Source: Metabacillus niabensis (GTDB taxonomy: Bacteria; Bacillota; Bacilli; Bacillales; Bacillaceae). Taken from it: a DNA stretch of 34,154 nucleotides. Under the pieces are notes generated by a model. The model saw only the letters and a program-made list of their open reading frames with translations, was not told where the DNA came from and did not search any database. This document shows positions 13,285 through 27,361 of the stretch, one piece after another. Each line of letters opens with the position of its first letter. The stretch's first letter is position 1. Made by a program: the position numbers and the translations under genes. Location: positions 1 to 34,154 of the forward strand of contig NZ_CADEPK010000019.1 in assembly GCF_902829255.1 (NCBI RefSeq), given 5' to 3'.

Positions 13285-13890
13285 TTAGCAATAACCTTGT
13301 TTCTTCTGACTAGTCTTGTAAATATCCGGCAGCTGTAAACGAAGCAGCTCTTCCATTTTTTCTTCATCTTTCCTTATTTCCCCAACATCAACTGCAATCG
13401 GAACAAGGCTCATTCCATTTGGACCGACCAATGGCTTTTCTTTTTGCTTGATTCTGAAGCCATACGATATCCGCATCATTCGATAAAATCTGTTTTCCAT
13501 TAATGCAATATAATACATTGGGTTATACTTTTTTACATGTTCAAGAAAAATATGAAAAAATAAATGAAAATATCCTTTACGTTGATAATCTTCATGAAGG
13601 CAAAGCTTATCAATTTCCCATACTTCTTTTTGATGGTGATAAATCTCTTTATATTGTGAAAAATCGGCACCCTTTTGGACTGTGCTATCAGGGTTATTTG
13701 GATGATACGGAATAAATTCAATCGTACCAATGACTTTTCTTTTTTTAATAAATGACTTTGGTATCGTTATTATATACCTTACTCCATTTTTAGCGTACGG
13801 ATCATTCACCCAGCCATATTTCTTACAATAATACTCCCACGTTAATTCAAATTCCTTTTGCTGTTTACGGGTACTTACAATTTCAAACAA
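13285..13890 (-). CDS. GNAT-fold acyltransferase next to a RiPP-like peptide gene
   Basis: A 201-residue protein with a GNAT fold. The acyl-CoA/ACP pyrophosphate loop reads EDYQRKGY at about 97-104, preceded by the strand VWEIDKLCL; the later helix-strand MENRFYRMMRISYGFR has the usual YxxxGF-like element. The long, Trp/Tyr-rich N-terminus and the pattern E-x-D-K-L-C-L resemble LuxI/FeeM-type N-acyl transferases as much as simple acetyltransferases. The start is TTG, with aggaggg 6 bp before it. The gene lies 58 bp after a 45-residue peptide gene on the same strand, with a hairpin between. I infer the peptide may be its substrate. It could instead be an unrelated GNAT enzyme. Confidence 0.75.
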   Translation of the reverse strand: MFEIVSTRKQQKEFELTWEYYCKKYGWVNDPYAKNGVRYIITIPKSFIKKRKVIGTIEFIPYHPNNPDSTVQKGADFSQYKEIYHHQKEVWEIDKLCLHEDYQRKGYFHLFFHIFLEHVKKYNPMYYIALMENRFYRMMRISYGFRIKQKEKPLVGPNGMSLVPIAVDVGEIRKDEEKMEELLRLQLPDIYKTSQKKQGYC

Positions 13891-13912
13891 GGGAAACCCT
13901 CCTAAAAAACTT

Positions 13913-13935
13913 GTCCCCCTTTGTACTTTGGGGAC
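13913..13935 (-). terminator. Hairpin/attenuator between peptide gene and GNAT gene
   Basis: On the minus strand gtccccaaagtac pairs with gtacaaagggggac (one bulge), followed by aag and six T. It is a member of the ggggac...gtcccc family seen elsewhere in the window, here placed so that it can attenuate transcription from the peptide gene into the acyltransferase gene. Confidence 0.65.
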
Positions 13936-13948
13936 TGACCCTTTCCTG

Positions 13949-14086
13949 TTAACTATCTAAAACGTCTCCTGGAAATCCAGGATTATGATCATCACCACCA
14001 CCAGGCGGCTTATCGGGAGGCCAGAATTTCATTGTCATGTTAACATCCAACACTTCTAGTTTAGGTGTACTCCAACTTTCCTTCAT
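13949..14086 (-). CDS. 45-residue RiPP-like precursor peptide (paeninodin-type leader)
   Basis: This small gene has an excellent ribosome site (aggaggggagtagt before ATG) and codes for 45 residues. The N-terminal half, KESWSTPKLEVLDVNMTM, matches the leader pattern of paeninodin-family lasso peptide precursors: W..P.L..LDV...T with Thr at -2 before the presumed cleavage. The remaining 26 residues are unlike a known core: KFWPPDKPP, then GGGDDHNPGFPGD and VLDS, rich in Pro, Gly and Asp with two Lys and one Trp. A lasso ring would need Gly/Ala/Ser/Cys at core position 1 and Asp/Glu at 7-9; here position 1 is Lys and the first Asp is at 6. No lasso cyclase, protease or transporter gene is nearby. 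The only neighbour is the GNAT gene downstream. Confidence 0.75.
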   Translation of the reverse strand: MKESWSTPKLEVLDVNMTMKFWPPDKPPGGGDDHNPGFPGDVLDS

Positions 14087-14397
14087 ACTACTCCCCTCCT
14101 TTAATGGTACCGTTTTATAAAGAACATAATGGCCATATGATTATCTCTTTTCATTTTCATACAGTCCACCATAGAGGATACTCGTGTTCTTCATAAAGAA
14201 CGTTTGCTATATCTTAACATCTTAATCTCTTAAAGTAAACAGATCCTTTTGAAAAAAAATTCAAGAATCATTAGTCACATCTATTACTAGTGAATAAGCA
14301 TTATTTATGTTAGGAAAAAACTGTATTCATGACCTTTTTCCTCAGAAAAAGCGATGAATTGCTCCATTATTTTATGATAAATAAGGAGGAAGTGCTT

Positions 14398-14490: not shown

Positions 14491-14523
14491 AAAACACTTT
14501 GGGGACAGTCCCCAAAGTGTTTT
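14491..14523. repeat. Perfect 16-bp-arm palindrome, ggggac/gtcccc family
   Basis: Arms aaaacactttggggac and gtccccaaagtgtttt are separated by a single a. Flanking A and T runs make it a possible bidirectional terminator. The ggggac-n-gtcccc core recurs at 13913, 14632 and 27330. Confidence 0.7.
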
Positions 14524-14631: not shown

Positions 14632-14645
14632 GGGGACTGTCCCCC
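14632..14645. repeat. ggggactgtcccc palindrome
   Basis: A short copy of the ggggac-n-gtcccc family. It abuts the stop codon (14645-14647) of the neighbouring minus-strand gene and lacks the long T-runs of the other copies. Confidence 0.6.
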
Positions 14646-18662: not shown

Positions 18663-18697
18663 GGGAAATCCGTCCAGTAATCGGGACGGTTCCCTTT
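18663..18697. terminator. Bidirectional terminator, HAD gene and ugd
   Basis: The stem gggaa-a-tccgtcc / gggacgg-ttccc has a 7-nt loop and short T/A tracts. It lies between the converging HAD and UDP-glucose dehydrogenase genes and reaches the ugd stop codon. Confidence 0.7.
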
Positions 18698-20007
18698 CAT
18701 ATATTCCCCTTTACACCTACGCCTATATATGTGTAACCTAAATCGACCAATCTGTTACGATCAAGCGCATTTCTGCCATCAAAAATGACCGGTTTGTTTA
18801 CTTTTAACTTAATCGCTTCCCAATCGAGGTGTATTAGCTCCTTCCATTCTGTGACGAGGATAATCGCATCTGCTCCTTCTATTGCGCCTATCGGTGTTTG
18901 CGCGTAATTAATCATGGGGAAAATTCGTTTTATCTGATCAATTCCTTTAGGATCATAGGCTGACACAATGGCGTGATTTTGAATAAGATATTCGATTACT
19001 CGTAGCGAGGAGGCTTCTCTAATATCGTCTGTTTCTGGCTTAAACGTTAAGCCTAAAATAGCAATATGCTTATTCGTTAAGTCTCCTAGTGTATTTGCCA
19101 CATTTGTCATAAACCATTCAACCTGGGAATCATTTACGCTTTGTACTGCTTGAAGAATTTGAAATGGAACGTGATTTGCTGCTGAAAATGCTAATAATGC
19201 TTTAATATCTTTAGGAAAGCATGAACCTCCAAAGCCAATACCCGCTTGAAGAAAATCTGGACCTATCCGCTTATCTAGCCCCATACCTTTTGCTACATTT
19301 GTTATATCGACATTTAAATTCTCGCACAATCTTGCCAGTTCATTAACAAACGATATTTTCGTTGCTAAAAAAGTATTTGAAGCATATTTAATCATTTCCG
19401 CGTCGTTTAGCGCTGTAAATAAAATTTTCGATTGAAAATCGTTATATAAACTGTTCATTTTCATCTTCGCTCGGTCATTTTCACATCCTAAAATAATCCG
19501 ATCTGGCTGTAACGCATCTTTTAACGCTCTACCCTCTCTTAAAAATTCAGGATTTGAAACAAGATCAAATGGGATATCCACATTTCTCTTTTGCAATTGG
19601 GAGAATATAATTTCCTGAACCTTCTTCCCTGTGCCTACGGGAACTGTACTTTTCATAATGATTATTTTATAGTCATCGATAAATGTTCCAATCGATTGTG
19701 CCACTTGCTCAACAAATGAAAGATCTGCCTCACCAGATGGTAATGATGGAGTGCCGACAGTGATAAACACATATTCAGCTTGTTTGAGAGACTTCCTAAT
19801 AGATGTTGTAAATGATAGCTGACCAAGTTTCAGCTGCTGCTTCATCATATCTTCCATACCTGCCTCATAAAATGGAAGATATCCTTGTGATAGAAGCTTT
19901 ACCTTCTCTTCGTTATGTTCTACGACTACTACGTGATGACCATAAGCTGCAAAGGCGACACTTGTCGTCATTCCAACATAGCCCGCACCTATTACGGCAA
20001 TATTCAT
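18697..20007 (-). CDS. ytcA: UDP-glucose 6-dehydrogenase (YtcA-like)
   Basis: Oxidises UDP-glucose to UDP-glucuronate with two NAD. The 436 residues include the N-terminal GAGYVG Rossmann motif, KSTVPVGTG, SNPEFLREG, and the catalytic cysteine (residue 263) in GFGGSCFPKDIKAL, then a C-terminal UDP-binding domain with GLTFKPETDDIREA. The start is ATG 20007, with a ggggaaaa site; the TTG at 20022 lies upstream of that site. It follows the uridylyltransferase gene by 48 bp on the same strand. The pair plus the neighbouring epimerase and glycosyltransferases match the B. subtilis ytdA-ytcABC spore-glycan cluster, but tuaD would be possible by sequence alone. Confidence 0.93.
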   Translation of the reverse strand: MNIAVIGAGYVGMTTSVAFAAYGHHVVVVEHNEEKVKLLSQGYLPFYEAGMEDMMKQQLKLGQLSFTTSIRKSLKQAEYVFITVGTPSLPSGEADLSFVEQVAQSIGTFIDDYKIIIMKSTVPVGTGKKVQEIIFSQLQKRNVDIPFDLVSNPEFLREGRALKDALQPDRIILGCENDRAKMKMNSLYNDFQSKILFTALNDAEMIKYASNTFLATKISFVNELARLCENLNVDITNVAKGMGLDKRIGPDFLQAGIGFGGSCFPKDIKALLAFSAANHVPFQILQAVQSVNDSQVEWFMTNVANTLGDLTNKHIAILGLTFKPETDDIREASSLRVIEYLIQNHAIVSAYDPKGIDQIKRIFPMINYAQTPIGAIEGADAIILVTEWKELIHLDWEAIKLKVNKPVIFDGRNALDRNRLVDLGYTYIGVGVKGNI

Positions 20008-20055
20008 TTTTCCCCGCTCCAATCCAAGTTTATCTATCGTATTAAACTTCCTTAT

Positions 20056-20934
20056 CTATTTTTCGTTTGCTTGAATCCTGTTTAAATAATCTAGTACTTC
20101 ATCACGTAAATCATCTCGCTGTAAAGCAAAATCAATTGTTGCTCGAATAAACCCTAGCTTATTTCCGATATCATATCGCCTTCCGTGAAATTGATAGGCA
20201 TAAACGGCTTGGCGCTCATTTAATATTCGAATCGCTTCCGTTAACTGTACTTCACCACTAGAATCTGGAGGTAGTGTATTTAAAATTGAAAAAATTTCCG
20301 GTCTTAGGATATAGCGCCCTAAAATCGCATATTGAGATGGCGCCTCTTCTTTCTTTGGTTTTTCGACCAATGTTTCGATGTTTAATATATTTTCGTCTAT
20401 CTCACTACCCTTTGGTTTAATAATCCCGTATTGAGAGACTTCATCTTCTGACACCTTTTGAACGCCAACAATCGAGGAATGATACCTGTTGAAGACTTCA
20501 ATTAATTGCTGTAAACAAGGCTTTTCTGACATCACGATATCATCACCTAATAGAACAGCAAAAGGTTCATTGCCAACAAATGATCTTGCACAATTAATCG
20601 CATGTCCTAAACCCTTAGGTTCCTTTTGACGAATATAATGGATATTTGCAAGATTCGTAATTTTTTGCACCTCATGAAATAAGCTTAATTTATTCTTTTT
20701 CATCAAAGCATCCTCTAGTTCATATGTTTGATCAAAATGATCCTCAATCGAACGCTTACCACGCCCGCTAATGATAATAATATCCTCAATCCCTGAAGCA
20801 ACTGCCTCCTCCACGATATATTGAATCGTAGGTTTATCAACTATCGGCAGCATTTCTTTCGGTAATGCCTTCGTTGCTGGTAAAAATCTTGTCCCTAATC
20901 CAGCTGCTGGTATAATCGCCTTCCGTATCTTCAT
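20056..20934 (-). CDS. ytdA: UTP-glucose-1-phosphate uridylyltransferase (YtdA/GalU-like)
   Basis: Makes UDP-glucose from glucose-1-phosphate and UTP. All 292 residues fit the family: nucleotide-binding AAGLGTRFLPATKALPKEML at the N-terminus, PTIQYIVEEA, LLGDDI, VEKP and GRYDIG-type motif (GRRYDIGNKLGF). The ATG at 20934 has gagggg at 7-8 bp. It is the first gene of a two-gene operon with the UDP-glucose dehydrogenase and would supply its substrate. The symbol is assigned from context with ytcA, ytcB and cotI; housekeeping galU/gtaB is the alternative. Confidence 0.93.
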   Translation of the reverse strand: MKIRKAIIPAAGLGTRFLPATKALPKEMLPIVDKPTIQYIVEEAVASGIEDIIIISGRGKRSIEDHFDQTYELEDALMKKNKLSLFHEVQKITNLANIHYIRQKEPKGLGHAINCARSFVGNEPFAVLLGDDIVMSEKPCLQQLIEVFNRYHSSIVGVQKVSEDEVSQYGIIKPKGSEIDENILNIETLVEKPKKEEAPSQYAILGRYILRPEIFSILNTLPPDSSGEVQLTEAIRILNERQAVYAYQFHGRRYDIGNKLGFIRATIDFALQRDDLRDEVLDYLNRIQANEK

Positions 20935-21404
20935 TCAAATTCCCCTCATAATACAATTAAATTTTTCAACTTATTTATTTTTATGAAAGTCACCTAAAAA
21001 TGTATGGTGGTTTATCCTATACATAAAAAAATAGGTAGATGATAGCTACATTTAATAAAAAACAAACTAGCACAAATGTTACTTGGGTTTATAAGTAGTC
21101 AAACGTTTTCAAAGAATGGGTATTCCTATATCAAGAAGAAGCCTCAGAGACGTTCTAAAGAAGAACAAGCATTCACCTAAACCAACTAATTAAATAAATA
21201 CATGTAAAATAGTTTAGTTGTCCTATACAAATATTTTCCTTTCTCATAGGTTAATTAAAAGTATGCTCCAGTGTAAAAAACCACCTTCTATCAATTACAA
21301 AAAGTACTTTCTTGCCTGCACTTATTTTTTCATTATTGCAACTATAGAAATGGCGTAATTTATTCTGGTGTCACTACTTTAATATTTATGGCTGGAGGTA
21401 TATC
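20935..21404. other. Divergent promoter region of the spore glycan genes
   Basis: This 470-bp region separates the minus-strand ytdA-ytcA and plus-strand cotI operons. It holds a sigma-K-type promoter on the plus strand (21227-21253). On the minus strand CATACATT (20999-21006) equals the sigma-E -10 consensus but lacks a clear -35. No gene is supported. Confidence 0.45.
21227..21253 (+). promoter_or_regulatory. Sigma-K-like promoter of the cotI operon
   Basis: AC at 21227-21228, a 16-bp spacer and CATAGGTTA at 21245-21253 match the sigma-K pattern AC-N16-CATAnnnTA exactly. The transcript would begin about 145 bp before cotI. Late mother-cell expression fits a spore-coat kinase and coat-glycan enzymes. 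Confidence 0.6.
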
Positions 21405-22502
21405 GTGGAAAATACAATGATTATGCCATGGGAAGAGGATCCGCTTCAGGAATTTTATGTACCGGATTACATTATTCAATATGCCCATCAGGTTCTCGAA
21501 GCCTATGATTTTTCTGTTCATAGTATGAATGTCGTAACGACAAAGTCAGATAAAGGCGGGGCCATTTGGAAAATGGAAACGAATGCCGGTCCGAAAAGCT
21601 TAAAGCTATTACATCGAAGACCTGCAAGAAGCATGTTTAGCCTTGGCGCTCAAGATTATTTAGTACATCAACAAAATGCGAAAGTCCCACCAATTATCAA
21701 AACGAAGGACGGTAGCAGCTATGTCGAAGCTGGGGGAAAGCTATGGTTTGTCGCGGAATGGATTGAACCATTAACCCCTGTATCAAAAGATTTAACAGGG
21801 GCAAAGCACTTATGCCATGCACTTGGCGAATTTCACCGTTTAAGCAAAGGGTATGTCCCTCCACAGCATTCCGAAATTGCCTCAAGAGTACTGAAATGGC
21901 CGAAAAATTATCAAAAGGTTATTAATAAAATGGAATGGTTCCGTAACATAGCGATGGCCTATCAGGAAATGCCTGCAAGCTCTTACCTATTACAAGTTTT
22001 AGATGGCTTTGAGCAACAAGCAATAGCTAGCTATGAAAGATTACAAGCTTCAAGCTACACTGAGTTAGCACAGCTCGGAAACGAATACTGGGGACTTGTT
22101 CACCAAGATTATGGATGGTCAAATGGACAAATGGGTCAGGATGGCATGTGGATTATTGACCTAGATGGTGTTGCCTATGACCTGCCAATCCGTGATTTAA
22201 GGAAGCTTATTTCCGGCACAATGGCTGATTTATATCGTTGGGATACAACTTGGGTAAGAGAAATGATTTTAGCCTATCATGAAGCAAATCCAATTTCACC
22301 ACAGCTATATGATTTACTAATGATCGATTTATCCCTTCCAAACGAATTTTATAAAAACATTAAAGAAGTAGTCTATGAGCCTGAATTATTTTTAAATGAA
22401 CAGACTAGAGCCTTAATCCAAACAATTGTTGATACCGATCAAACGAAATGGCCTGTATTAGAAGAAATTCAACATGATTGGAAGGGAGTAGAACAAACAT
22501 GA
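21405..22502 (+). CDS. cotI: CotI/CotS-family spore coat kinase-like protein
   Basis: A 365-residue protein of the aminoglycoside phosphotransferase-like kinase fold used by CotI, CotS and YutH. The Brenner-type motif HQDYGWSN gives catalytic Asp235 (His233, Asn240), and IIDLDG gives metal-binding Asp252/254. Lys67 in SLKLLH is the likely ATP lysine. All key residues are present, so it may be active. The start is GTG, with a good ggaggt site. Its stop overlaps the ATG of the following glycosyltransferase (ATGA), the same translational coupling expected for coat operons. It is likely made in the mother cell from the sigma-K-like promoter upstream. Confidence 0.85.
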   Translation: MENTMIMPWEEDPLQEFYVPDYIIQYAHQVLEAYDFSVHSMNVVTTKSDKGGAIWKMETNAGPKSLKLLHRRPARSMFSLGAQDYLVHQQNAKVPPIIKTKDGSSYVEAGGKLWFVAEWIEPLTPVSKDLTGAKHLCHALGEFHRLSKGYVPPQHSEIASRVLKWPKNYQKVINKMEWFRNIAMAYQEMPASSYLLQVLDGFEQQAIASYERLQASSYTELAQLGNEYWGLVHQDYGWSNGQMGQDGMWIIDLDGVAYDLPIRDLRKLISGTMADLYRWDTTWVREMILAYHEANPISPQLYDLLMIDLSLPNEFYKNIKEVVYEPELFLNEQTRALIQTIVDTDQTKWPVLEEIQHDWKGVEQT

Positions 22503-24064
22503 ACATCTTAATGATTTGTACCGAGAAGCTGCCTGTCCCTCCAGTACTAGGTGGAGCTATTCAAACGTATATTGCTGGTAGTCTTCCATATTTAAAAAAT
22601 GCTCATACGATTACCGTTCTCGGTGTTAATGACCCATCTCTTCCCGACGAAGAAACAATTGATGGTGTTCGTTATGTCCGAATTCCTGGTAAAGTTTTTA
22701 CCGTTTATCAAGAAGGAGTCACACAATATCTTGAGACAAACGAGTTTGATCTGATTCATATTTTCAACCGTCCAAGACTTGTCCTCCCTGTTCGACAAGC
22801 AGCACCAAATGCCAAAATTACATTGAGTATGCACAATGATATGTTTTCTCCAGAAAAAATTAATCCTGAAGAAGCTGCTTTAGCACTCGAAGAAGTCTCA
22901 AATATCGTAACAGTTAGTGATTACATCGGCAATGAAATAAGTAGATTATTTCCACAGGCAGCGACAAAGGTGAAAACGATTTACTCTGGAGTAGATACAG
23001 AGCAATTTTTACCAGGTCATCACCCAAAAATGCGCCAAGTGAGAAATGAGCTTCGCAGAGCAAATGGATTAGAAAACAAAACGGTTCTCTTATTTGCTGG
23101 AAGACTATCACATAATAAAGGTGTAGATCGCTTAATTCGTGCCCTTCCTGAGCTTTCAAAACGTTTTAATGATCTAGCTTTAGTCATCGTTGGAAGCAAA
23201 TGGTTTAGCCAAAATGATGTAACCGATTATGTTGCTTACATTCGCTCCTTAGCAAATCGCTTGTCAGTACCAGTTGTCACAACAGGATTTGTCGCACCTA
23301 ACGAAATTCAAAATTGGTTTGCTGCTGCCGATTTATTCGTATGCACATCAGTTTGGCAGGAGCCTCTTGCACGTGTCCATTATGAAGCAATGGCTGCAGG
23401 GCTACCAATTGTTACGACAGCACGTGGTGGAAATCCGGAGGTTATTCAATTAGGAGAAAATGGGCTCGTTGTTGAAAATCCAGAAGATCCGAATAATTTC
23501 ACAGAAGCTATTTCTAAAATTCTTTCAAATAAAGCTTTAATGAAACGAATGGGGGAAAAGGGAAGAGAATTAGCCCTCACATTATACCAATGGGATCGTG
23601 TCGGCTCTGAAATTCTTGATGTTTGGAATCATGCTACATTGTCGCAATCTACAGCTCCAGTGCCAGCAGCTAATAAGGTTACTAGTATTGAAAAATATCG
23701 AAATGAACAGCGTCCAAATAAAACAACAGCTAAAAAAGCAACAGCCAAAGAATCTGCGACAAATAAAGCAACAGCTAAAAAAGCAACGGCCAAAAAATCC
23801 GCGACAAATAAAGCAACAGCTAAAAAAGCAATTGCCAAGAAAAATACCGTACAAACAGAACAAAGAAGTAAGCAACCAAGCAAACTAGTCGAACGCACCG
23901 TAGCTAATCTTGCCAACTCTACTCCAACTCCTACAAATCAAAATCAAAGTGGCACTAACCGCCAAAGCTCTTTAAACAAGAAAGTTCTTAAGTCATTCCT
24001 ACAAGAAATGCTTATAGCATCTACAAAGCAATCACTTGAAAAACTTGCACGACCATCTAAATAA
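22499..24064 (+). CDS. GT4 glycosyltransferase with Lys/Ala/Thr-repeat tail (CotSA/YtcC-like)
   Basis: A retaining glycosyltransferase of 521 residues. It has a GT-B fold from 1 to about 380: MNILMICTEKLP, then GGAIQ, LFAGRLSHNKG and the C-terminal EPLARVHYEAMAAGLP with the E-x7-E catalytic pair (about 288-296). From about 385 on it carries a long basic low-complexity tail with a 15-residue repeat (TAKKATAKESATNKA type, 2.5 copies, 45 bp in DNA), as in histone H1-like or AlgP-like tails, then a short helical end. The tail is not part of the family. ATG 22499 overlaps the cotI stop. It is related to the shorter glycosyltransferase at 26194. Spore-surface glycan synthesis is inferred. Confidence 0.9.
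   Translation: MNILMICTEKLPVPPVLGGAIQTYIAGSLPYLKNAHTITVLGVNDPSLPDEETIDGVRYVRIPGKVFTVYQEGVTQYLETNEFDLIHIFNRPRLVLPVRQAAPNAKITLSMHNDMFSPEKINPEEAALALEEVSNIVTVSDYIGNEISRLFPQAATKVKTIYSGVDTEQFLPGHHPKMRQVRNELRRANGLENKTVLLFAGRLSHNKGVDRLIRALPELSKRFNDLALVIVGSKWFSQNDVTDYVAYIRSLANRLSVPVVTTGFVAPNEIQNWFAAADLFVCTSVWQEPLARVHYEAMAAGLPIVTTARGGNPEVIQLGENGLVVENPEDPNNFTEAISKILSNKALMKRMGEKGRELALTLYQWDRVGSEILDVWNHATLSQSTAPVPAANKVTSIEKYRNEQRPNKTTAKKATAKESATNKATAKKATAKKSATNKATAKKAIAKKNTVQTEQRSKQPSKLVERTVANLANSTPTPTNQNQSGTNRQSSLNKKVLKSFLQEMLIASTKQSLEKLARPSK
23726..23840 (+). repeat. 45-bp tandem repeat inside the glycosyltransferase gene
   Basis: Unit starts with acagctaaaaaagcaac at 23726, 23771 and 23816 (about 2.5 copies) and codes for the 15-residue Lys/Ala/Thr unit. 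Copies are nearly identical, so the number may vary between strains. Confidence 0.9.
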
Positions 24065-24081
24065 GGAATCACATAAAATAA

Positions 24082-24103
24082 GCGGGATGAATCTTCATCC
24101 CGC
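24082..24103. terminator. Terminator between the glycosyltransferase and acidic protein genes
   Basis: Perfect 10-bp stem gcgggatgaa / ttcatcccgc with a 2-nt loop, followed by a T-rich stretch on the plus strand. Confidence 0.8.
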
Positions 24104-24168
24104 CATTTCATTTAAGCCCTCACTCAAAATTCCCATCTTTATCAATTGAGCTTTCACTTCATTATAAT

Positions 24169-24555
24169 CTAAAAGGAATCTTCTCTTAATCGATTAATTA
24201 GTTGCTTTCTTAAGCTGTTCACTCGCTCACCTGTGCTAGCTTCAGCCTCCTCAGAATCTTCTTCCAAACCTTCGTTCACTTCTTGTTCCAAATCGTCCTC
24301 TTCTTCATTCTCTTCTACTTCTACGTCATCATCTACTTTGTCTTCTTCGTCTTCTTCAGCATCGTCACTTTCATATTCAACTTCTACTTTTTCACCATCA
24401 ATCTCTAATGAAACATTACTACCAGCAAATAAATTATCTTCCTCAAGTGCATCTAAAAGGAATCTTAATGCTTCTTCAGCTGATACACCTTCTGATAATC
24501 CAACTTCCTCGTGAAATTCAACCTTAAGTTCAAACTTTTTTATTCCCTTTGCCAT
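24169..24555 (-). CDS. Asp/Glu-rich acidic protein, 128 residues
   Basis: Function unknown. Residues 1-65 look folded, with strands KKFELKVEFHEE and NVSLEIDGEKVEVEY around a helix SAEEALRFLLDALEE. Residues 66-110 are an almost uninterrupted acidic stretch, and the C-terminus ends in a mixed helix (RVNSLRKQLINRLRE). The start has a strong ribosome site (aggagggg). The gene is convergent with the glycosyltransferase that carries a strongly basic tail, suggesting, but not proving, an electrostatic partner. It is flanked by spore-coat genes, so a coat function is possible. Confidence 0.8.
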   Translation of the reverse strand: MAKGIKKFELKVEFHEEVGLSEGVSAEEALRFLLDALEEDNLFAGSNVSLEIDGEKVEVEYESDDAEEDEEDKVDDDVEVEENEEEDDLEQEVNEGLEEDSEEAEASTGERVNSLRKQLINRLREDSF

Positions 24556-24784
24556 CCGTTTCCCCTCCTACATATGATTAATAGTTTATAACTCAGACTT
24601 AGTTTATGACGCGAATTTAAAATGGTATAGTACAGCTTCCTCATGCAGTTATCATTCATTTAAAAGTTCACTACTTTAGTAGCCAAAATGATTTCACCTT
24701 CATTGCTTCTAGCGATATTCTTACATTTATCATTATTTTCTTTTGCATAATAGGTATTGGTTCATACACATGCCTTCGCTTTTA

Positions 24785-24793
24785 CATACATTA
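24785..24793 (+). promoter_or_regulatory. Possible sigma-K -10 box upstream of the 83-residue protein
   Basis: CATACATTA fits CATAnnnTA, and AC dinucleotides lie 15 and 17 bp upstream (24766-24769). The box is about 40 bp before the ATG. The spacing is slightly off the preferred 16. Confidence 0.45.
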
Positions 24794-24831
24794 ATTTAAA
24801 GACTTTACTATCTATAGGAAGGAGACCAATT

Positions 24832-25083
24832 ATGACATCATCTATTAATTATTGTAGTGCCCTACAATCATTACCTTCTGGATCAGAGGTTACAGTTCAT
24901 ACGAAAGATAAAAGCTATTATAATACAATTTTCAAAAGATATTATCCAAGAACAAATACAGCCCTAATTGTTATCGATCCGTTTTATAGCCTTGGTGGTT
25001 ATCCAGTTTTAATCCCTTGTCATGAAATTGTTTCGATTGATTTACCTAATTCAATACAGGGAGTTTCTGATGAGGATGAATAA
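24832..25083 (+). CDS. Small unknown protein in the spore glycan cluster, 83 residues
   Basis: I do not recognise this family. The ATG at 24832 has aaggaga 8 bp before; the frame is open further upstream but without a ribosome site. The sequence begins TSSINYCSALQSLPSGSEVT and reads as alternating strands (EVTVHTKDKSYYNTIF, TALIVIDPFY, VLIPCHEIVSID), a small beta-barrel pattern like SH3 or Sm folds, then a short acidic tail. No signal peptide. It lies between the acidic protein and the epimerase gene, transcribed with the epimerase (63-bp gap), so a coat or glycan role is likely. Confidence 0.75.
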   Translation: MTSSINYCSALQSLPSGSEVTVHTKDKSYYNTIFKRYYPRTNTALIVIDPFYSLGGYPVLIPCHEIVSIDLPNSIQGVSDEDE

Positions 25084-25146
25084 TCATCAAGCAACACCCT
25101 CATTACGCTTTCGAAAGTCACATTTCTTCCATCGAGTTGAGAGACA

Positions 25147-26094
25147 ATGAAAATCGTTGTAACAGGTGCAGCAGGATTTATCGGCTCCCATTTATGTGAG
25201 CAATTACTAACAGATAGCCGGAATGAGGTTGTAGGTGTTGATACGTTTATAGGACCGACTCCCCCTCCACTTAAGAAGCTTAATCTAACGAATCTAGTTA
25301 AATCCCCCTCTTTTCAATTTGTTAACGACGACCTTTTAACGATTGATTTAGATGAACTATTAAAGGATGTAGATGTCATCTATCATTTAGCTGGGATACC
25401 AGGAGTTCGTTCTAGCTGGGGAAGGGATTTTGACCCATATGTAAGGAATAATATTGTTGTTACACAGCGACTGTTAGAGGCAGCAAAAAATAAACGCATT
25501 AGTAAATTCATTTATGCTTCTACTTCATCTATCTACGGTGAAAAGGATGGAAAAGTGGCTGAGAATTCTTTACCTACTCCACTTTCTCCGTACGGAATTA
25601 CGAAATTAACTGGTGAGCATTTATGCCATGTATACCAAAAAAGCTTTAACCTCCCGATTATCATTCTCCGCTTTTTCACTGTTTATGGACCTAGACAGCG
25701 GCCAGATATGGCTTTTCATCGTTTTATTTTGCAAATGATAAAGGAAGAGACATTAACAGTATTTGGAGATGGATTACAATCAAGAGACTTCACCTATATT
25801 AGCGATTGTGTTAATGGGATTGCTAATGTTTTACACAAAGATGGCTTAATTGGAAGAACATTGAATATCGGAGGTAAAGAGAGAGCTACAATCAATGAAA
25901 CAATTTCGATTCTCGAGAAGTTACTAGGAAAGCGAGCAAACATACAATATTCTGGTAACATCAGCGGGGAACCAAAGCATACATGGGCAGATATTTCATT
26001 AGCCGAGAATCTACTGGACTATAAGCCAAGATGGACGTTAAAGGAAGGATTACAAAAGGAAATTGAGTATATCCGTTCTGCCTATTCTATCTAA
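25147..26094 (+). CDS. ytcB: NAD-dependent sugar-nucleotide epimerase (YtcB-like)
   Basis: Short-chain dehydrogenase-type epimerase of 315 residues. The N-terminal Rossmann motif is GAAGFIGSH (7-15). The active site has the Ser/Thr cluster STSSIYGE and Tyr149-x3-Lys153 (SPYGITK). The C-terminal half has ILRFFTVYGPRQRPDMA and DFTYISDCV, as in UDP-glucuronate/UDP-galactose 4-epimerases. In this cluster UDP-glucuronate from the ytcA-type dehydrogenase is the likely substrate, giving UDP-galacturonate; this is inferred. The ribosome site before ATG 25147 (ttgagagaca) is only moderate. It is followed after about 100 bp by the second glycosyltransferase. Confidence 0.9.
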   Translation: MKIVVTGAAGFIGSHLCEQLLTDSRNEVVGVDTFIGPTPPPLKKLNLTNLVKSPSFQFVNDDLLTIDLDELLKDVDVIYHLAGIPGVRSSWGRDFDPYVRNNIVVTQRLLEAAKNKRISKFIYASTSSIYGEKDGKVAENSLPTPLSPYGITKLTGEHLCHVYQKSFNLPIIILRFFTVYGPRQRPDMAFHRFILQMIKEETLTVFGDGLQSRDFTYISDCVNGIANVLHKDGLIGRTLNIGGKERATINETISILEKLLGKRANIQYSGNISGEPKHTWADISLAENLLDYKPRWTLKEGLQKEIEYIRSAYSI

Positions 26095-26193
26095 TAATAT
26101 GTGAGAATATGAAACTCAATCTACCTATTAGCTTAAAACAGATGACAAAGTATGCACTTAATACGTCTATGAGACTTAAAGGAAATGATACAA

Positions 26194-27330
26194 TTGAAAC
26201 TAGCCTTTATTTGTACAGAAAAGCTTCCCTCTCCCGCAATAAGAGGAGGAGCCATTCAAATTATGTTAGATGGGATTATTCCTTATTTCCAAAACCATCA
26301 AGTAACCATTTTCTCGATTACCGACCCTAAGCTCTCAAATCAAGAAACAGATGGATTTATTCAATATATACGGTTTCCTAGGGAAAACTATGAAATGGAT
26401 GTAGCGAATGCACTTAAAAACCAATCCTTTGATTTAATTCATGTATTTAATCGCCCAAATACGGTCCATCTATACAAGGCAGCATCACCAACAAGTAAAT
26501 TTGTCCTCAGTCTCCATAATGATATGTTTTCAGAGCTGAAGATGACAAAGGAAGAAAGCCTCCGGGCACTGAAACATGTCGATGCAATTACTACTGTTAG
26601 TCAATATATTAAACGAACGGTCACATATCGATATCCACAATATTCTCATAAAATATATGTATTATATTCAGGAGTCGATTTGACAAAATTTACGTCTATT
26701 CATGAGAAACAAGGCCAAGTGCTACAAAGAACGCTTCGACAACGCCACAAGCTTTCAGGCAAGCAGGTTGTTCTTTTTATTGGGAGATTAAATAAAACAA
26801 AAGGACCCCATTTATTAATTAAAGCACTTGAAGAGCTTATTCCTAAATACCCTCATATCTGTTTAGTCATCGTTGGAGGGAAATGGTTTAGTGAAAATAC
26901 TGTTGATGACTATGTACATTCTTTATATACATTAGCAGAAAACCATCGTGACCATATTTACTTTACGAACTATATTCCATCAGACGAAATCCCTCTTTAT
27001 ATGACAATGGCAGATCTATTCGTTTGCAGCTCACAATGGCATGAGCCTCTAGCACGTGTTCATTATGAAGCAATGGCAGCTGGACTTCCAATTATAACAA
27101 CGGACCGCGGCGGCAATGCAGAGGTAATTGCTCACAAGCATAATGGCTATGTCATTTCCGACTACGATAATCCACAAGCTTTTTCTCAAGCAATCGATTA
27201 TCTTCTTTCAAACCGAAATAAAGCAAAACAATTCGGTCTTGCTGGACGAAAAATCGTTGAAGAGCATTTCCAATTTCATCATGTAGCAGAAAGATTAGAA
27301 AACATTTATGTAACTAGTCTAAATTCATAG
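26194..27330 (+). CDS. ytcC: GT4 glycosyltransferase (YtcC-like)
   Basis: GT-B retaining glycosyltransferase of 378 residues. It is a paralogue of the enzyme at 22499 (shared starts ICTEKLP and GGAIQ, shared EPLARVHYEAMAAGLPI) but lacks the basic tail. The first in-frame ATG is 26185, but the TTG at 26194 is better spaced from aaagga and begins MKLAFICTEKLP, matching the paralogue's MNILMICTEKLP. It shares the operon with the epimerase, and a hairpin with ccccacat / atgtgggg follows. A spore-surface sugar polymer is the likely product. Confidence 0.9.
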   Translation: MKLAFICTEKLPSPAIRGGAIQIMLDGIIPYFQNHQVTIFSITDPKLSNQETDGFIQYIRFPRENYEMDVANALKNQSFDLIHVFNRPNTVHLYKAASPTSKFVLSLHNDMFSELKMTKEESLRALKHVDAITTVSQYIKRTVTYRYPQYSHKIYVLYSGVDLTKFTSIHEKQGQVLQRTLRQRHKLSGKQVVLFIGRLNKTKGPHLLIKALEELIPKYPHICLVIVGGKWFSENTVDDYVHSLYTLAENHRDHIYFTNYIPSDEIPLYMTMADLFVCSSQWHEPLARVHYEAMAAGLPIITTDRGGNAEVIAHKHNGYVISDYDNPQAFSQAIDYLLSNRNKAKQFGLAGRKIVEEHFQFHHVAERLENIYVTSLNS

Positions 27331-27361
27331 GGACAGTCCCCACATTTTTAATGTGGGGGTT
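27330..27361 (+). terminator. Terminator after ytcC, overlapping a ggggac-family core
   Basis: cccacat and atgtggg pair around a T-rich loop. The preceding bases gggacagtccc (27329-27340) form a competing core of the repeat family at 14491. There is no long T-run, so termination may be partial. Confidence 0.6.

Follow-up and report, generated by a model that had tools for sequence, protein, structure and literature searches.

The window analysed here comprises 34,154 nucleotides of the Metabacillus niabensis contig NZ_CADEPK010000019.1 (GCF_902829255.1), given on the forward strand. It carries two minus-strand genes separated by 58 bp, the first encoding a short precursor peptide and the second a putative acyltransferase of the GNAT type. 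The following features were recorded at this locus:

13285 to 13890, minus strand: gene for a GNAT acyltransferase of 201 aa with a predicted FeeM/LuxI-like fold, TTG start (sub-threshold Pfam matches, AlphaFold2 model, Foldseek, 36 aligned homologues)
13897 to 13903, minus strand: ribosome site of the GNAT gene, AGGAGGG (sequence reading)
13904 to 13935, minus strand: palindrome-like hairpin GTCCCC/GGGGAC followed by T6, between the two genes (fold z-score -0.74)
13949 to 14086, minus strand: K1 precursor peptide gene, 45 codons encoding 45 aa, leader MKESWSTPKLEVLDVNMTM and core KFWPPDKPPGGGDDHNPGFPGDVLDS (ORF; NF033524 above cut-off; alignment with 34 other GNAT-linked peptides)
13952 to 14029, minus strand: core of 26 aa with Lys1 and a C-terminal Ser (both residues in 35/35 GNAT-linked cores)
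14030 to 14086, minus strand: leader of 19 aa, W..P-LEVLDV-T(-2) (W5, L13 and T18 invariant in 35/35 aligned GNAT-linked peptides)
14093 to 14102, minus strand: strong ribosome site of the peptide gene, AAAGGAGGGG (sequence reading)

This arrangement agrees with the original prediction, which had described a 45-codon gene with a strong ribosome site and a GNAT gene 58 bp downstream. The paeninodin-type leader proposed there was likewise recovered, the peptide matching the NCBIfam model of paeninodin family lasso peptides (NF033524, lasso_PadeA_fam) with an E-value of 7.1e-11 and 41.7 bits against a cut-off of 27. Cleavage of the leader would take place after M19, a site placed by the lasso pattern. 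The core KFWPPDKPPGGGDDHNPGFPGDVLDS has Lys at position 1, its earliest acid (Asp) at position 6 and none at positions 7-9, as had been noted when it was described as devoid of lasso ring residues; it thus has neither the small residue at core position 1 nor the acid at 8-9 of the paeninodin ring. A chance ORF was considered and excluded, as 35 GNAT-linked peptides align.

The hairpin and T-run between the genes had been credited with raising peptide above enzyme output. The structure is present, but the RNA between the genes gains no folding stability over shuffled sequences (44 of 200 shuffles equally good), and it resembles the palindrome GGGGACWGTCCCC, of which the window's own genome holds 118 exact copies (reversed control, 0); in view of these two results, the hairpin gives no support to stoichiometric control, although unequal expression of peptide and GNAT is possible. 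An attenuator was rejected as a conserved feature on the same grounds; a simple scan found a hairpin-plus-T in 11 of 31 other intergenic regions (L093 and L095 left out). The palindrome, a REP-like dispersed element, occurs in the window at 14501-14513, 14632-14644 and 27329-27341 (one mismatch).

The window GNAT falls under the Pfam gathering cut-offs for both FeeM (E 0.12; 12.6 vs 27 bits) and Acetyltransf_5 (E 0.0018; 19.4 vs 22.4 bits). Its AlphaFold2 model, built with 37 homologues, reached a pLDDT of 86 and a pTM of 0.83. When this model was searched with Foldseek, the ordinary GNAT SACOL1063 took ranks 1-2, FeeM (2g0b) rank 3 and BjaI, an acyl-CoA-dependent AHL synthase, ranks 5-7, with FeeM and BjaI both in the top five rows by E-value at a TMq of about 0.6. 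The comparison with LuxI and FeeM proposed earlier thus points to a possible likeness, with an ordinary GNAT in first place. Among the 37 GNAT members of the family, matches at E 1 or better were obtained with Acetyltransf_5 in 33, with Acetyltransf_1 in 29 (best E 1e-5) and with FeeM in 20 (best E 2e-5). Because the general Acetyltransf_1 model fits as well as FeeM and an ordinary GNAT heads the Foldseek ranking, the length of the acyl group is unreadable from the fold. A WEIDKLC block is invariant in the family, and we take it to resemble the WELSRF block found in LuxI proteins. The 36 aligned homologues are 39 to 94% identical to the window protein, and the family is therefore not one recent clone.

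The distribution of the pair was assessed in 84,980 species, each represented by a single genome, using a GNAT alignment seeded by the exact motifs WEIDKLC and [IV]GTIEFIP, from which more divergent GNATs escape because both motifs derive from close homologues. The scan returned 35 loci, all in bacilli (Metabacillus, Peribacillus, Cytobacillus, Jeotgalibacillus, Cohnella, Alkalihalobacillus, Virgibacillus and others), and 33 of them had a gene for a PadeA-leader peptide adjoining the GNAT in the same orientation, which preceded it in 32 cases and followed it in L093. With the window and genome G129 added, the peptide lies beside the GNAT in 35 of 37 close homologues, as the original prediction had expected, and these 35 peptides (33 scan loci, window and G129) form the K1 set referred to below. 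The pairing of peptide and GNAT is therefore real and conserved. Both exceptions look decayed: upstream of its GNAT, L090 retains the tail of a K1-like core as an interrupted remnant in place of an intact peptide, and L112, which lacks the peptide, has a GNAT with NAPC instead of the NDPY motif.

In a separate set of 150 relatives, 17 genomes gave a GNAT match (E 0.001), ten of them strong (E 6.3e-49 or better) and each with a PadeA-family match just upstream. The seven others held only distant GNATs (20-31% identity), and the flanks fetched around their eight hits contained no PadeA-like peptide and no eps or lasso representative genes. Since these distant homologues lack the peptide, pairing is a property of the close GNAT subfamily. 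A GNAT usually occurring without the peptide had been named as a finding that would speak against the pair; only two of the 37 close homologues are of this kind, but seven of the 17 relatives with a GNAT have nothing except distant, unpaired ones. The eight distant hits were set aside as another subfamily, outside the 37.

Five features are invariant across the 35 aligned K1 peptides, namely W5, L13, Thr at position -2, core Lys1 and the C-terminal Ser, and NF033524 matches all 35 at E 1 or better. An acid at positions 7-9 occurs in nine K1 cores and is missing from the other 26; six have it at 8 or 9. These cores were compared with 48 distinct PadeA-type cores from GNAT-free loci, pooled from fetched loci through a motif filter and thus a subset of NF033524 hits. 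The latter begin with A, N, L, G or W and never with Lys (0/48), carry an acid at 8-10 in 47 cases and all end in Ser. Only position 1 and the C-terminus of the MAFFT alignment were used, as the Pro/Gly content makes core columns unreliable. When a K1-peptide profile was run over the 150 relatives, the top ten of its 51 hits were the ten GNAT-linked peptides, and 20 other loci fetched had neither GNAT nor Lys1 core (21 lower hits lay outside this set; L211 was read via the same place in L029). Core comparison and profile hits agree, so that Lys1 and the GNAT go together and the lasso ring acid is not conserved. The sequences thus support the view that the K1 core is not a lasso core, while a lasso ring may be possible for some members, the nine with an acid at 7-9.

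Several further peptides were encountered in the fetched loci. The Pro of the RRE motif is missing in six of the 35 K1 leaders (L101, L104, L106, L109, L117 and L118), and the lasso-type precursor of L172 (G168, Sutcliffiella rhizosphaerae) likewise has a leader without it (WENLSLEVLDISMTM). Seven loci (L031, L037, L043, L154, L161, L162 and L172) share a lasso-type core that begins NGPGN(A/S)N.DCFD(V/I) and runs into a long tail with Cys and a final Ser. Locus L071 (G128:C37:84789-84995) encodes a peptide in which a PadeA leader precedes a linear core of GDS repeats (NNGRGKGAGGSGDSGDSGDSSDSNDSGDSFGS) and which may represent a second type of linear sibling; kinase, RRE, nucleotidyltransferase and ABC genes lie beside it, adjoining a lasso set, and a close GNAT is absent from the fetched locus. 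An additional PadeA-leader peptide, with the core FRCLPPLSVGTEEFNCES, lies downstream of the pair in L116, about 600 bp past the GNAT start.

We consider it reasonably probable that the peptide and GNAT genes together constitute a conserved RiPP module, whose product would be a linear, acylated sibling to the paeninodin-type lasso peptides. The K1 precursor keeps the handles by which lasso enzymes would recognise it, namely the W-type RRE motif, Thr at -2 and the C-terminal Ser; its core lacks a conserved ring acid and carries Lys at position 1 in place of Ala, Gly, Asn, Leu or Trp. The FeeM/LuxI-like GNAT would acylate Lys1, most likely on its side-chain amine, by analogy with NpuN, a GNAT reported to attach long acyl chains to the side chain of Lys1 in the precursor of nostolysamide (PMC13060382, in the text available). 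Ten K1 cores contain no lysine other than Lys1, which makes this residue the likely acceptor; the earlier proposal that core lysines in general are acylated would thus be narrowed to one position. The invariance of Lys1 is consistent with a fatty acyl group on a core Lys side chain, and the product, judged from its sequence, would probably be lipid-tagged and chain-like. The NpuN parallel is one of chemistry and not of demonstrated ancestry, as NpuN is a tandem GNAT whose substrate is a lanthipeptide with a Nif11 leader.

The GNAT might instead acylate the alpha-amine of Lys1 after leader removal, as in microvionin, the goadvionins and the lipoavitides, Lys1 then being retained for charge or fit. 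GNATs are known to lipidate RiPPs at the N-terminus, according to the accessible part of the same source (PMC13060382), and removal of the leader would free position 1; a lysine at this position in 35 of 35 cores would be unexpected if the alpha-amine alone mattered, and we regard this reading as unlikely.

More removed from acylation of the peptide is the view that the GNAT makes a small acyl signal in the manner of LuxI or FeeM, or acylates an exopolysaccharide, with the peptide as a separate neighbour. The modelled fold, which would resemble FeeM and the AHL synthases, points in this direction, as do matches of TIGR03694 (exosortase-system acyltransferase) to five of the 37 GNATs at E 1 or better (best E 8.9e-6) and the genes surrounding many of the pairs. 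Eps-like genes lie within about 6 kb of the GNAT in 12 of the 35 loci, labels in other genomes having been assigned by blastp against the genes of one genome, with ten of these checked against Pfam. The wider neighbourhood was described in eight genomes picked for a spacing of 25-38 kb between pair and lasso genes, where the intervening stretch was fetched and its genes were clustered. An eps-like set, nearly all on one strand, lay between lasso genes and GNAT in all eight chosen stretches, each with Wzz, a ParA/BY-kinase-like ATPase, an EpsC-like polysaccharide dehydratase, an EpsG-family protein, a DegT aminotransferase and glycosyltransferases. An EpsL-like sugar transferase, an EpsM-like acetyltransferase and an HTH protein were each present in seven, a CDP-glycerol transferase in six and a TagD-like protein in five, and the GNAT stood immediately before the Wzz gene in five.

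The GNAT nonetheless tracks the K1 peptide (35/37) and not the eps genes: in ten of the 35 loci, including L085 from the window's sibling species, eps and lasso representative genes are both absent within 6 kb, and the 20 non-K1 PadeA loci carry no GNAT. A signal- or polysaccharide-directed GNAT with an unrelated peptide beside it is therefore improbable. The pair of the window is itself isolated, the sugar genes at 18.7-27.3 kb being of a different kind. By Pfam, the interval 18697-27330 encodes a UDP-glucose dehydrogenase, a GalU-like nucleotidyltransferase, an APH-type kinase, two GT4 glycosyltransferases and an epimerase, which we take to be a polysaccharide set of the spore-coat type.

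The proposed module requires a source of leader-processing enzymes. A Pfam scan of 20 of the window's ORFs found neither a lasso cyclase nor a leader peptidase or ABC exporter. A whole-genome profile search placed the sole B2 (PF13471, Transglut_core3) and the sole PqqD domain (PF05402, that of B1) on another contig, C408 (6.9 kb), together with a lasso precursor (GGKGTTQVD...), a partial cyclase (C) gene, an HprK-like kinase, an NTP_transf_5 nucleotidyltransferase and ABC genes. Cyclase, B1 and B2 are thus not clustered with the window peptide, and B1, B2 and the partial C all lie on C408. The reported absence of cyclase, protease and exporter genes near the pair accordingly holds for the window contig but not for the genome, and the idea of an orphan working without lasso machinery was not upheld among the homologues. 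B2 is present in 36 of 37 GNAT genomes (34 of 35 from the scan, plus G000 and G129), against 42 of the 150 relatives and 33 of the 140 without a close GNAT (Fisher p 4e-5, for genomes that are not independent and with kinship ignored). A PqqD-type RRE (PF05402) also occurs in 36 of 37, with one copy in 25 genomes, two or three in 11 and none in one. As the 25 have a single PF05402-detectable RRE each, they hold no dedicated RRE for the K1 leader, and such an RRE was rejected.

Pair and B2 lie within 40 kb of each other in 25 of 35 genomes: the distance is at most 5 kb in eight, 23-39 kb in 17 and 191 kb in one, while eight have them on separate contigs and one has no B2. In L103, L115 and L116 the pair is placed between the lasso nucleotidyltransferase and an ABC gene, and 14 of the 35 loci have, within about 6 kb, an ABC gene sharing 50% identity or more with the lasso ABC (L113, at 33%, left out). 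Homologues inside lasso clusters had been expected to speak against the original prediction; K1 peptides do sit in or beside such clusters, but as an extra precursor tied to a GNAT. By the simplest route, the leader would be captured by the lasso B1 (RRE) and cut after T-M by B2, in trans in the window's genome. PbaB1, the RRE of paeninodin, is reported to prefer W leaders in the part of PMC13381572 available. Halalkalibacter nanhaiisediminis (L091, G081/G156), which has an intact pair but neither B2 nor a PqqD RRE, and the six K1 leaders without the motif Pro argue against this route, although the lasso-type leader of L172 lacks that Pro too; the eight genomes with pair and B2 on separate contigs and the one with 191 kb between them also count against it.

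A further reading is that the lasso cyclase still closes the K1 peptide into a lasso or a branched macrolactam. The lasso-type leader, the lasso C genes near some loci and the nine cores with an acid at 7-9 would agree with closure, but 26 of 35 cores lack such an acid and Lys1 is found in none of the 48 cores of GNAT-free loci, which renders it very improbable. Equally remote is a leader mimic that occupies lasso B1/B2 and tunes lasso synthesis, its fate set by GNAT modification, which would fit the common leader type and the linkage to lasso clusters but would have no need of an invariant Lys1 and C-terminal Ser (35/35).

A linear, acylated product would set K1 peptides beside several known systems. 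With the paeninodin-family lasso peptides of NF033524 (paeninodin, pseudomycoidin) they share the W..P.LEVLDV..T leader, the C-terminal Ser, polysaccharide loci and B1, B2, kinase and ABC genes in the genome; unlike that family, they have a GNAT partner and a core of Pro/Gly/acidic make-up that starts with Lys and lacks a conserved ring acid. Linear polyphosphorylated peptides (LPPs) are similar in that they, too, are predicted to be linear RiPPs and occur together with paeninodin clusters and polysaccharide loci, but are described in the available text as having a YxxPxVLxHQxIxFETxxS leader, their own RRE and a SipW-like peptidase (PMC13381572). All 35 K1 leaders have W at the motif and lack the HQ..FET stretch, and the one PqqD-type RRE of the window's genome sits in the lasso cluster. 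The terms GNAT, acyltransferase and acetyltransferase have no occurrence in the main text of the LPP paper (PMC13381572).

The selidamides and nostolysamides likewise pair a GNAT with a RiPP precursor, and the nostolysamide acceptor is Lys1; as far as the accessible text goes, they differ in Nif11- or nitrile-hydratase-type leaders and often in lanthionine enzymes, and the tandem GNAT NpuN contrasts with the single-domain window protein of 201 aa (PMC13060382). A GNAT encoded beside the precursor, the mark of selidamide loci, is what was observed in 35 of the 37 close homologues. Albusnodin-type acetylated lasso peptides also tie a GNAT (AlbT) to a lasso-type precursor with a modified Lys side chain, but albusnodin is, in the portion of the source available, a true lasso of Streptomyces, with Lys10 as acceptor and the GNAT inside the cluster (PMC8498205). 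The FeeM, LuxI and exosortase-associated acyltransferases may resemble the window GNAT in predicted fold and give weak profile matches; the window protein differs in scoring under curated cut-offs and in having a ribosomal peptide as partner.

The remaining steps of the proposed acylated-sibling route would draw on the same lasso cluster. HprK-like kinases of the paeninodin family are described as phosphorylating the C-terminal Ser, to which a nucleotidyltransferase can add hexose (PMC8498205, part available). As this Ser is a known target in the lasso family, phosphorylation and hexose addition may extend to K1 peptides, and a lasso-type ABC exporter would release the product. That paeninodin clusters sit in capsular polysaccharide loci has already been published (PMC13381572, in the text available). 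A speculative and improbable extension is that the product tethers membrane to matrix, with acyl-Lys1 as anchor, the Pro/Gly/acidic core as stiff spacer and the C-terminal Ser phosphate with its sugar joined to the exopolysaccharide of the linked eps-like operon, the sibling lasso being the threaded counterpart.

PadeA leaders, GNAT-lipidated RiPPs and linear RiPPs beside paeninodins (LPPs) are already known singly; the combination of a K1 core, a paeninodin leader and a FeeM-like GNAT was not found in the literature searched, with supplements and most subscription papers out of reach. NF033524 names the K1 peptides lasso precursors although their cores lack lasso-making features. They look like a second product line, in which leader recognition is held in common with the lasso pathway and a GNAT step is added. 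This overlap between K1 and lasso systems bears on the evolution of RRE sharing among RiPP pathways, and the recurring layout of lasso genes, eps-like operon and K1-GNAT pair makes the role of paeninodins in polysaccharide loci testable through one two-gene module.
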